A stretch of 29,063 nt of DNA, taken from positions 1-29,063 of the IMG/VR virus record IMGVR_UViG_3300042465_003132; one strand, written 5' to 3'. Position numbers and translations under genes: made by a program. Below, piece after piece: positions 2,050 through 5,726 of the stretch. Every line of letters starts with the position of its first letter. Positions within the stretch are counted from its first letter, which is position 1. Below the pieces are notes generated by a model, which saw only the letters and a list, made by a program, of their open reading frames with translations, was not told the origin of the DNA and ran no database searches. This DNA is from a virus.

Positions 2050-3909
2050 TTAGATGAACGTACGATCTTTTTCTGCGAGCAGTTCATCTATGTTGATAAC
2101 TGTTCGTTTGCCTACCTCGTAGCGAGATAGAAAAGGGTTCTTCATATGATGGGTCTTATGCATACCTTGGTTGAGCATCTCTCGTGCTCTAATCTCACAG
2201 AACCACAGAGCCATTACCATATCGGTCTTACCCTTAGTAGTTGGCGACCACGTAATCAGTTGCTCGATAAGAGCTTTAACGTTTTCTGTTTGATCGCTAG
2301 GAAGATGGATAAGATTGTCTCTATGGTGTTTGCCGTCAAATTGCTTCGTTCCAAACAATGTTGACATACTGGCAACACCAAATCCTGAGTCCCATTTATT
2401 GTTTCCTGTGTGGTGTTCACGTAGTAGTACTCCTCGACTTGCAAGATTTTGGCGGATGCCTTCATCTTGTGTAAGGAAGGACTGAAAAGCGTTCTTCTCT
2501 ACTATCCACTCACTAGGCTGGTAGAGGGAAGTCCAATCAAAAATTAGTTGGCGTATCGCCGCAGGCGTAGGACGAGTGATCTTAATAGCATCAACGATAT
2601 AACGTTTATGAGTAGCCCTATCAACAGCGTAACAAACGACGGCTGTATCACCAACCATAGCGGGGTCAAGACCACAAATAAAAGAAAAGCCGTTGACATC
2701 GCGTGGATGGCCTGGGTTACCAGGAACCAAGCGACCTGCCTTACGCATACCATCTATGGAACCTCGCACACATACTGGATCAAAGATGGCATCATCTGAG
2801 ATATCTTGTTGTTGATAAACTAAAGCCCAAGTAGAAGCATCCATAGCTTGGCGTTCATTGTAGAGGTTACGACCATTCCATCTAGGATAGAGGCCGTCCT
2901 CATTCAAATCAGATTCTACTTGTCCATCAAAGGGAGCATCACTTGCAGGCCAGAGAGTCTCCCATTTGTCAGGGTCCTCATCTGTCTTTAGAAGCGCCGG
3001 CATAGCCAAGTATTTCCAAGGAACTAACCCGCCAGGGTAGCGGTCTTCGTTACGCAGTTCGCGGTATAAGTCCATAGCTGCAACTCTTGTACCAATGACT
3101 ACTAGTTTACCAGTAGGGTTCAAACGAGAGCGTACGTCCTGAGTTAACCAGCGAATCTGCTTTTCAAACTCATTAGCATTTTTTAAGGTAACAGCGTCGT
3201 CTACGATAATCATATCTGCACGCTTACCGTAGATCTGCCCACCGATACCAATGGCTTCGATGTTTGGATCTTTTTCACTGGACTCACGTAGCTCGGTACC
3301 GAAGGTAACACGGGTAGCCTGCCAGGAAGCTGACTTAGAGTTAAACCCTACGCCAGCGGCATAAGCGCTCTGGAGGTCTTCATACATAGGATGAGTCAGG
3401 CGTTGCTTGATGGCGTAGAGAAAGTCTGCAGCTAACTGCTGGGTTTGTGAAACAATCAAAACTCTAAAGTTGGGGTTACGTACTACCTGCCACGTTACAT
3501 AGTCAACCGTGATCGTAATTGACTTGGCGTGGTTGGGCGGGATGTTCAAAAGAATTCTATTGGAAGCTAGCCCTGGCTCATACTTCATAGAAGGGTGTAG
3601 CCAGCCTGGCTCTCTACCTTCGATCATATCCACAAGGTTCTGCTGGTGTGGGAATGTCTTAGAGTGGAGGAACTTTTGGCGAAACTCTGCAAAGGTGAGG
3701 TCGTGTACATCGCCGTCTTGGAACTGCTTATCCTTTAGCCCAAGGCGTGTTCTGTCAACCTTGTCTGTAAAAATCTTATCTGTGCGACGGTAGTACTCAT
3801 AGGTCTTAATGGATTTACCGGCGGAGGCGCAAGCCTGCTCAATGGTCATACCCTCTGCTACACAGCCAAGGATAATTCTCTTGGCAATGTCTGCGCTGTT
3901 ATCAGCCAT
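2050..3909 (-). CDS. terL: Terminase large subunit (packaging ATPase/nuclease)
   Basis: A 619-residue motor that powers DNA translocation into the prohead and cuts the concatemer. Residues 15-42 form a helix-turn-helix-like segment. The ATPase has a Walker A-like loop PPNHAKS at 124-130, a Walker B strand MIIVDD at 233-238, and coupling motif VVIGTR at 270-275. The RNase H-like nuclease starts at about 408 with FICGLDPAMVGDTAVV (acidic residue D415), then WIVEKNAF with E471. All expected parts are present and the length is ordinary for phages with an N-terminal helix-turn-helix. The ATG at 3909 overlaps the stop of the upstream 54-residue gene by 8 bases. No separate small terminase is obvious; the N-terminal helix-turn-helix or the small upstream gene may cover DNA recognition. 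Confidence 0.93.
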   Translation of the reverse strand: MADNSADIAKRIILGCVAEGMTIEQACASAGKSIKTYEYYRRTDKIFTDKVDRTRLGLKDKQFQDGDVHDLTFAEFRQKFLHSKTFPHQQNLVDMIEGREPGWLHPSMKYEPGLASNRILLNIPPNHAKSITITVDYVTWQVVRNPNFRVLIVSQTQQLAADFLYAIKQRLTHPMYEDLQSAYAAGVGFNSKSASWQATRVTFGTELRESSEKDPNIEAIGIGGQIYGKRADMIIVDDAVTLKNANEFEKQIRWLTQDVRSRLNPTGKLVVIGTRVAAMDLYRELRNEDRYPGGLVPWKYLAMPALLKTDEDPDKWETLWPASDAPFDGQVESDLNEDGLYPRWNGRNLYNERQAMDASTWALVYQQQDISDDAIFDPVCVRGSIDGMRKAGRLVPGNPGHPRDVNGFSFICGLDPAMVGDTAVVCYAVDRATHKRYIVDAIKITRPTPAAIRQLIFDWTSLYQPSEWIVEKNAFQSFLTQDEGIRQNLASRGVLLREHHTGNNKWDSGFGVASMSTLFGTKQFDGKHHRDNLIHLPSDQTENVKALIEQLITWSPTTKGKTDMVMALWFCEIRAREMLNQGMHKTHHMKNPFLSRYEVGKRTVINIDELLAEKDRTFI

Positions 3910-4066
3910 TGGATGCCCGTCTCATTTCTTCTACTAGTATTGCTGCCGCGATTTGGCGGCGCATTTCTAAGCGACGGGATTCTCGCTCTTGCTTGTACTG
4001 TTTCCGAAATTTCCTACTGGAGGTAGCGCGAAGGTATAACTGCTCTTCTGTGTAGTTACGTATCAT
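3902..4066 (-). CDS. 54-residue Arg/Gln/Glu-rich protein upstream of terminase
   Basis: Starts MIRNYTEEQLYLRATSS and ends EEMRRASNG. From about residue 18 on it is nearly all charged (KFRKQYKQERESRRLEMRRQ), predicted as one long amphipathic helix. Its TGA overlaps the terminase ATG (ATGGCTGA), which suggests translational coupling. It is the first gene of the leftward terminase-portal unit. It could be a reduced small-terminase-like partner by position, but nothing in the sequence proves this. No strong ribosome binding site is seen, so the start is tentative. Confidence 0.5.
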   Translation of the reverse strand: MIRNYTEEQLYLRATSSRKFRKQYKQERESRRLEMRRQIAAAILVEEMRRASNG

Positions 4067-4113: not shown

Positions 4114-4270
4114 GGAATCAAAGATTCCTTTACTAGGTTGAGTGTGATCTTCCTATTAGAGATAGAGCTATCCCCACTAAAAGTACTGGGCAGATCGGGC
4201 TTAACGCCCGAAGGAGCCACAGCGAACTGAGGGGTAAGTCAGTACTCGGCCTAGGGGCCTCGTAGAGGCC
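4114..4270. other. Cluster of perfect hairpins, possible structured RNA or leader
   Basis: Four stems lie in about 160 bases. GGAATC-AAA-GATTCC is at 4114-4128. An outer stem AGTACTG (4182-4188) pairs with CAGTACT (4240-4246) and encloses CGGGC-TTAAC-GCCCG (4196-4210). GGCCTC-GTA-GAGGCC is at 4256-4270. A long-range closing stem around an inner hairpin is more typical of a folded RNA than of random sequence. It could be the leader of the leftward terminase mRNA, a small RNA, or structured DNA at an origin. I could not match it to a known riboswitch class. Confidence 0.4.
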
Positions 4271-4312
4271 AACCAAGGGTCGTAAAACATACTCTCCCCG
4301 TTTTACTCCCCT

Positions 4313-4323
4313 ACTATATATAA
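4313..4323 (-). promoter_or_regulatory. Putative -10 element for leftward terminase unit
   Basis: Reading leftward, TATAGT (4318-4313) is one base from TATAAT and lies in an AT-rich TTATATATAGT run. No good -35 box lies 16-18 bases upstream (TCCAGC is there instead), as in activator-dependent promoters. The GlxR/CRP-like palindrome centred at 4365.5 would be about 60 bases upstream of the predicted start near 4306, close to the classic class I activator position. A second identical TATATATAAG box at 4375-4384 could serve rightward transcription. Assigned by pattern only. Confidence 0.35.
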
Positions 4324-4357
4324 GGCAGGAAATATGCTGGATTTCTCGTTTTACTGA

Positions 4358-4373
4358 TGTGAGTTACATCACA
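4358..4373. promoter_or_regulatory. GlxR/CRP-family operator, perfect consensus
   Basis: The 16 bases TGTGAGTTACATCACA match TGTGA-N6-TCACA exactly, and also the stricter actinobacterial GlxR form with TA at the centre of the spacer. GlxR/CRP are host cAMP-responsive regulators. The site lies between two TATATATAAG boxes in the divergent control region. For the leftward -10 at 4318-4313 it is at an activating distance; for the rightward box at 4375-4384 it would overlap the -35 region and probably repress. The site is seen directly; its use by host protein is inference. Confidence 0.55.
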
Positions 4374-4560
4374 GTATATATAAGTGCTGGTCAGAGGCTA
4401 TATTGGCAGCTTTGACTTTAGCAAATATTTTTTGTTGGGGAGTAACTGGCACACCGCGCTGGATTTTAGCAATGGGGGGTCACCGTCACCGTGAGGGTTA
4501 GACATCTGACGGGCTATTGTCTAGTTAGTTAGAAAAGATAGAGAGGCCGACTACCGTATC

Positions 4561-4749: not shown

Positions 4750-4782
4750 CACCTAAATAAATAAGCTCTTAGGTGCTTGACA
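4750..4782 (+). promoter_or_regulatory. Inverted repeat next to a consensus -35 box
   Basis: CACCTAA (4750-4756) and TTAGGTG (4769-4775) form a perfect 7-bp inverted repeat with a 12-base spacer, followed one base later by a perfect TTGACA (4777-4782). The -10 region is weak: candidates TTAAGT or TAAGTT lie 18-19 bases downstream. Reading rightward this would drive the small-gene block starting at 4859, with the inverted repeat as an adjoining operator. The -35 match is good and the -10 match poor, so confidence is low. Confidence 0.35.
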
Positions 4783-4858: not shown

Positions 4859-5095
4859 ATGGAACTACAGTTAAAGACAGCTATCAATGATGAATTGACT
4901 AGCTATGTATTCGGATACCCTTTCGGCATTGAAAAGATCGCGCCACGTGATTATGTAGTCTTCCGCGAATTCGGGTCACGTCGTATTTACTTACGTGTTG
5001 AGAGCTTTACATCTAAAGAGCAAGCAAAAGCCTATTTATCCCCAATCGTAGAAAAGTACAGCAACTCAATCATTACAGCGTTAGTGGCTAACTAA
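4859..5095 (+). CDS. 78-residue protein of unknown function, first gene of rightward block
   Basis: Starts MELQLKTAINDELTSYVFGY. It appears to be a small alpha/beta protein with strands around DYVVFREFG and RIYLRVESF, then a helix (SKEQAKAYLSPIVEKYSNS). No Cys and no membrane segment. A nearby ATG at 4854 runs into a stop after six codons, so 4859 is used despite a weak ribosome site. Its TAA overlaps the next ATG (TAATG). As the first gene after the control region it is probably expressed early. Not recognised. Confidence 0.6.
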   Translation: MELQLKTAINDELTSYVFGYPFGIEKIAPRDYVVFREFGSRRIYLRVESFTSKEQAKAYLSPIVEKYSNSIITALVAN

Positions 5096-5271
5096 TGAAC
5101 ATTCAAGAGCTAGGCATTGACAGCTACGACATCAAGCGCAGACAAGACACAATCTCCGAAACGTGGAGCTGGTGTCTTCATCTAGTCTCCGGCATTACTT
5201 TCGCCGGAGCTAGCACATCGTATGAAAAGGCCTTACAGTCAATCCAAAACTACGCAGGAAAGGTAAACTAA
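5095..5271 (+). CDS. 58-residue protein of unknown function
   Basis: Starts MNIQELGIDSYDIKRRQD and ends IQNYAGKVN. It is joined to both neighbours by TAATG overlaps, so its reading frame fits exactly between two starts and stops, which supports it as a real gene. The C-terminal half resembles a beta-hairpin plus helix (SGITFAGASTSYEKALQSI). The layout, with a short strand pair and a final helix containing an A-x-x-x-I face, echoes the preceding protein. The two may be distant relatives, but this is only an impression. Confidence 0.6.
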   Translation: MNIQELGIDSYDIKRRQDTISETWSWCLHLVSGITFAGASTSYEKALQSIQNYAGKVN

Positions 5272-5726
5272 TGAACAGCACACTAATCAAGCAAGCACTA
5301 AGTGAAATCACACAAGAATCTATGACTAATGGCTCTATGAGCTCATTATGGGAAATGTTGCCGGATTACGTCGCTGGCTCTCAATGGGTAGGCGAGATCG
5401 TAGACCTAGCCGAACAGCTCTCCGATTACTTTACAGACGGAGAAGATGTAGAAGACTACAAGCTCTCCGATTACTGTGCGGAGATAGCAGACTGTGAGAC
5501 TCAAGACTATTACAGCAACATTAACAAGCGTGTGCAAGAGCTGTCATTATGGGCATACCCTACCCTAGATGACAGCGTGGCAGAATTAGGTACCTATAAC
5601 GCCGGAACTATAACAAGCCTTAATAGTCTTTATCTGTACTGTGCTATGCGTGAGAGCCTAGACAGTATCGCCGGCTATGTGGCTAGACGTGTAGAGGAGC
5701 AAGAGGAAGAGCTGGCTAATGCGTAA
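5271..5726 (+). CDS. 151-residue acidic protein of unknown function
   Basis: Predicted all-helical and strongly acidic (LSDYFTDGEDVEDYKLSDY at about residues 49-67; EEQEEELANA at the C-terminus). Two near repeats, LSDYFTDGED and LSDYCAEIAD, sit about 15 residues apart. Three other Cys are scattered without zinc-ribbon spacing. The N-terminal helix (TLIKQALSEITQESM) is amphipathic. It overlaps the next gene by 8 bases. Small acidic early phage proteins often mimic DNA or bind host enzymes; that is a possibility only. Confidence 0.6.
   Translation: MNSTLIKQALSEITQESMTNGSMSSLWEMLPDYVAGSQWVGEIVDLAEQLSDYFTDGEDVEDYKLSDYCAEIADCETQDYYSNINKRVQELSLWAYPTLDDSVAELGTYNAGTITSLNSLYLYCAMRESLDSIAGYVARRVEEQEEELANA

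Follow-up and report, generated by a model that had tools for sequence, protein, structure and literature searches.

The operator and the genes around it

The DNA analysed, referred to here as the window, is a stretch of 29,063 bases from an IMG/VR virus contig. Its genes include those for a terminase large subunit, a major head protein, a glycosyltransferase, primase pieces, a sigma-like protein and a WhiB-like factor. The terminase-sense unit and a unit of small genes diverge from a 792-base intergenic region, and the features in and beside this region are as follows.

2050..3909, minus strand: terminase large subunit (phrog_38, 1.9e-65)
3902..4066, minus strand: 54-aa ORF, the first ORF of the terminase-sense unit
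4124..4313, minus strand: leader of the presumed terminase-sense transcript, about 190 nt, conserved and strongly structured
4318..4323, minus strand: putative −10, TTATAT, inside the first TATATATAAG box and 17 nt after the putative −35
4341..4346, minus strand: putative −35, AGAAAT, 11 nt from the operator; GGAAAT in most relatives; not TTGACA-like
4358..4373, no strand assigned: CRP/GlxR-type operator TGTGAGTTACATCACA, which reads TGTGATGTAACTCACA in the terminase sense, with a polar A9
4375..4384, plus strand: second TATATATAAG box, adjoining the operator; loosely conserved only
4403..4431, plus strand: candidate small-gene-ward promoter TTGGCA-17-TATTTT; −10 region TTTAGCAAATATTTTTT conserved, −35 weak
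4859..5726, plus strand: three small ORFs of the divergent small-gene unit (4859-5095, 5095-5271 and 5271-5726), with no assigned function

The consensus of GlxR sites is 5′-TGTGA-N6-TCACA-3′ (PMC7999487), and TGTGAGTTACATCACA at 4358-4373 is an exact match to this palindrome. In a motif scan it was the sole perfect site in the window, the remaining nine matches having two mismatches each. The number of perfect sites expected by chance is 0.028 for the whole window and 0.00076 for the intergenic region. An earlier, sequence-only reading had proposed a perfect GlxR/CRP operator at this position and had judged a chance match in the intergenic region unlikely; the position, the uniqueness in the window and the low expectation all agree with it. 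Its description of an exact 16-base match holds for the ten half-site bases and the TA, but the rest of the 16 bases are not specified. The two TATATATAAG boxes that it described as 60 bp apart are both present, at 4315-4324 and 4375-4384 (60 bp from start to start), but the second is poorly conserved. In relatives the second box is a degenerate AT-rich stretch, and the first is kept in nearly all of those that bear the site.

Conservation of the operator in the window's own family

The sample consisted of the 80 nearest terminase relatives of the window. Contigs from 72 of these span the operator position; the other eight stop short of it or break within the operator. The operator is kept, with 0-1 half-site changes, in 52 of the 72 spanning relatives, and in all 52 the gap between the operator and CTTATATATA is an identical 33 nt. 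The terminase-sense element found at this distance past the operator reads CTTATA(T/C)ATA in these relatives. Among 40 distinct sequences the mean major-allele frequency was 0.99 in the half-sites and 0.60 in the N6 spacer, which occurred in 18 variants, so that the half-sites remain constant while the spacer varies, as in an operator. Spacer position A9 is the invariant one, a terminase-ward A9 being present in 40/40 window-clade sequences.

The operator in the window is thus real, conserved and non-random, and is not a chance match. Conservation in relatives supports the earlier suggestion of a CRP/GlxR-type operator in the phage control region. A check that had been proposed with it, whether the site keeps its place relative to the boxes, was run on the same relatives and gave a fixed distance to the first box; the site is not absent from close relatives.

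The other 20 of the 72 spanning relatives form a second clade with two AGTGA-N6-TCACT/A sites, AGTGAACCAGATCACT and AGTGACGTTAGTCACA, 46 bp apart. Relative to the terminase-sense promoter the proximal site is offset by half a helical turn, and the spacing in this clade has no simple fit to the arrangement seen in the window. It was also observed that the two AGTGA-N6-TCAC(A/T) sites of this clade (for example in L036, L039 and L060) have opposite A9 polarity.

Putative promoters on either side of the operator

On the terminase side, the layout in the window clade is the site, 11 nt, AGAAAT or GGAAAT, 17 nt, and TTATAT, with transcription predicted to start near 4311. The geometry from operator to −35 is the same as at the E7-family promoters described below, and from this AGAAAT is assigned its putative role as a −35 element. 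The predicted start coincides with the first base of the leader's first hairpin (4311-4277). This hairpin is kept among relatives, with one two-sided covarying pair, and in other relatives unrelated stems replace it. The leader (4124-4313) matched no Rfam family at the gathering threshold.

On the small-gene side, the spacing between the operator and the candidate promoter drifts among relatives, being mostly 47-52 but also 42, 54 and 60. The TTGGCA-17-TATTTT promoter, with TATTTT as a regulated −10, was therefore ranked second. The regulated promoter of the window is placed, with moderate confidence, on the minus strand in the terminase sense, because the spacing and the A9 polarity are as in the E7 family and the predicted start falls on the first base of the hairpin.

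The position of the operator could also be read in the opposite way, as a repressor or dual site at which host CRP holds back the small-gene-ward promoter. It is true that the operator precedes TTGGCA-17-TATTTT in the divergent region and sits directly against the second TATA box, and that repression of phage T1 promoters by cAMP-CRP is known in E. coli (PMC6737242). It overlaps neither candidate −35 nor −10, however, and the distance that varies (42, 47-52, 54, 60) is the one to the small-gene-ward −10, while the gap on the terminase side is invariant. As the E7-family sites are in addition phased upstream of −35 elements, which suits activation, repression seems distinctly improbable.

Inspection by eye of 4750-4782, just upstream of the small genes, showed a perfect TTGACA at 4777-4782 following a CACCTAA...TTAGGTG inverted repeat. 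This is possibly a separate small-gene promoter that has no operator.

Operators in the isolated phages E7 and F5 and their relatives

The isolates nearest to the window phage are the Planktophila phages LanE43-AprE7 (E7) and AprF5 (F5), with 46% identity in the terminase. Both are lytic; they are reported to encode a glycosyltransferase, a sigma-70 factor and WhiB (whiB), and to have as host 'Ca. Planktophila', a member of the Nanopelagicales order (PMC10202952). The 16-mer of the window recurs unchanged in both E7 and F5, within the divergent region that precedes their terminase, and F5 bears one more perfect site besides this shared one.

When 80 further relatives of E7 were taken together with E7 and F5, 77 perfect sites were found in 100 kb upstream of the terminase and none in 363 kb from the terminase on. 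A reversed-control motif gave no match in the E7-family sequence upstream of the terminase. Among 27 whole E7-family records, 19 have between one and three perfect sites, and control matches were again zero. In the small-gene direction, a TTGAC-like −35 typically comes next after the site, then a ribosome-binding site and a start codon, an arrangement that fits promoters.

The distance from the site to a TTGACA-like −35 was 10/11, 21/22 or 30/31 nt in 51 of 56 hits, and the spacings are periodic, with a Rayleigh R of 0.85 at 10.5 bp. The single promoter of the window has the first spacing of this series. A promoter-ward A9 is present in 49/50 E7-family sites, which gives the site a polarity. 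Promoter spacing is thus fixed or helically phased, the second clade of the window's family being the exception, and in the E7 family the operators lie upstream of the −35 on one helical face, as at class I promoters. Steps of one helical turn suit an activator that touches RNA polymerase from one face, and a repressor would not need them. The operator centres fall at about −54, −64 and −75. In E. coli, CRP at class I promoters is centred at −61.5 or −71.5; these positions are a few bp away from those of the phage operators and fit them only in part.

We also considered whether the block upstream of the terminase is a replication origin or a packaging (cos/pac) region, with the dyad bound by a protein serving that role. 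AT-rich boxes, palindromes and hairpins beside a terminase would be in keeping with this, as would the 19 of 57 window-family contig ends (L002-L081) that lie within 750 bp upstream of the terminase, but the contig starts share no single aligned position, and a single cos position is unsupported. E7-family genomes have up to three sites each, and a site typically precedes a small gene equipped with a −35, a ribosome-binding site and a start codon. An origin or packaging function for the dyad is accordingly very unlikely. The clustered contig ends themselves could reflect either breaks in assembly or the ends of genomes.

The presumptive host and the protein proposed to bind the operator

As its nearest isolates, E7 and F5, infect 'Ca. 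Planktophila', we infer that the host of the window phage is a freshwater actinobacterium of the 'Ca. Planktophila'/Nanopelagicales kind. The host-like genomes used for comparison are those of small, rhodopsin-bearing actinobacteria, judged to be Planktophila- or Nanopelagicus-like from genome size, GC, rhodopsin and mutual 16S distance. A search of bacterial genomes with the terminase found no prophage.

HTH_Crp_2 matched none of 21 phage records, the window included, and gave a strong match in each of two host-like genomes. The presumptive host genomes encode a CRP/GlxR orthologue with a matching recognition helix, SRETVNKALADFA, and the best PDB matches of this protein are actinobacterial CRP/Fnr-family regulators. 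In one whole host-like genome (G093) GTGA-N6-TCAC occurs in 5 copies, against a mean of 38.7 at other gaps; over the comparison gaps of 0 to 20 the counts never fell below 16. Near variants of the dyad are depleted in this genome in a graded way. The same dyad is absent from 752 kb of phage DNA from the terminase on. Twelve host-like genomes had low dyad counts relative to a reversed control, unlike ten other actinobacteria, although this control is affected by composition. Such avoidance of the dyad, at one exact spacing, is suggestive of a host protein that binds it. Host-like genomes themselves almost lack the perfect site, and most have no copy. Since the dyad is avoided, no host regulon of perfect sites could be demonstrated in them; degenerate sites could remain.

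We therefore infer that the binding protein is the host CRP/GlxR orthologue. The sequence-only reading had named host GlxR/CRP as the binder, and its proposal gains support from the presence of the orthologue, the lack of a phage CRP and the avoidance of the dyad. The protein might instead be encoded by the phage, as an unrecognised early activator or repressor whose site resembles the CRP consensus by convergence. No function is assigned to most of the small phage genes, WhiB-like and sigma-like proteins are present in the phages, and the AGTGA-N6-TCACT variation in one clade could track a co-evolving phage protein. No CRP-type helix-turn-helix was detected in the 21 phage records, however, and the site is common to two phage families with only 46% terminase identity. 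Avoidance of the exact dyad and gap by a host-like genome, graded over near variants, also points to a binder encoded by the host, and we consider a phage regulator unlikely.

Strong avoidance of GTGA-N6-TCAC, both in the one host-like genome and in the 752 kb of phage DNA, could also arise if the dyad were a restriction-modification recognition site. On that account it is hard to see why perfect copies persist in the phages exactly at promoters and in helical phase, or why the depletion is graded over near variants; we give this explanation hardly any weight. Binding by the host CRP/GlxR orthologue remains the preferred reading.

It had also been suggested that through the operator the phage reads host cAMP or nutrient state. 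Class III (PF00211) and CYTH adenylate cyclases, the two classes covered by the search, gave no match in 12 host-like genomes. The host-like CRP keeps a motif, FGELSLFDPGPRT, that resembles a cNMP pocket. As the presumptive hosts have no detectable cyclase of either class, the cAMP or nutrient reading is unsupported, and no dependence of the operator on an effector such as cAMP is claimed here.

Proposed mechanism and known systems

In the reading that we favour (probability roughly 0.62), the operator is a host CRP/GlxR site, and bound host CRP activates phage promoters in a class-I-like manner. The host orthologue would bind the phage operator and recruit RNA polymerase to the phage promoter. 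For the window clade the likeliest target is the terminase-sense promoter, with its −35-like AGAAAT/GGAAAT, its TTATAT −10 and a predicted start near 4311. In E7 and F5 the operator would act on promoters of the TTGACA type, which belong to small genes that are probably early. Binding by host CRP, activation and the start site are predicted here on a computed basis, which comprises conservation, positional bias, phasing, polarity, the lack of a phage CRP, the presence of a host CRP and dyad avoidance in one host-like genome. The idea that the site chooses between terminase-side and small-gene expression finds no support: spacing and polarity point to activation in the terminase sense in the window clade, while the E7 family has the same site at small-gene promoters. 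More tentatively, it is possible, if somewhat doubtful, that in two lytic-type freshwater actinophage families both early promoters and those of the terminase unit are driven from a perfect CRP operator, one that the hosts avoid throughout their own genomes, with host CRP as a ready-made activator, perhaps independent of cAMP, in cells without a recognisable adenylate cyclase.

GlxR of Corynebacterium glutamicum and CRP (Rv3676) of Mycobacterium tuberculosis share the consensus TGTGA-N6-TCACA (PMC7999487), and the host-like orthologue is close to them, with the same recognition helix. Unlike their operators, the predicted site described here lies in a lytic-type phage, and the presumptive hosts are without detectable class III and CYTH cyclases and nearly without the perfect site.

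Phage use of a host regulator is already known; the new part is a CRP/GlxR operator in these actinophages, of which we found no description in the open-licence papers searched. Sites for the host master regulator CtrA are likewise concentrated in promoter regions of alphaproteobacterial phages, where they have evolved in several lineages and act in lytic deferment (PMC9437464), but that regulator family and host phylum are different, and binding and regulation by CtrA were demonstrated experimentally. Host CRP also acts on promoters of phage T1 in E. coli, but in that case the effect of cAMP-CRP is to repress pir, and the context is lysogenic (PMC6737242), whereas the anatomy here suggests activation, and no lysogeny is known. 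In cyanophages, Pho boxes place sites for a host transcription factor on aquatic-phage promoters, although the factor is PhoB and the signal phosphate stress; box prediction alone is unreliable there (PMC10976474), a caution that applies to the actinophage operator too.

Few freshwater bacteria are as abundant as the Nanopelagicales, and both host and phage have been isolated (PMC10202952), which makes the claim directly testable. If true, CRP/GlxR-driven activation in lytic actinophages would join the few known examples of phages tied to a master regulator of the host, and the motif would find phage promoters in uncultured genomes. It would also raise the question of what CRP senses in streamlined, cyclase-poor actinobacteria.

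A further element, of about 48 nt, was observed right after many E7-family operators. It consists of nested inverted repeats (GCCCCGC...GCGGGGC) enclosing two inner arms, one of which has a TTCGAGA loop, and resembles a small three-way junction. Its stems differ between copies and stay complementary, for example at about −1558 in L234 and about −1723 in L090, relative to the terminase start.
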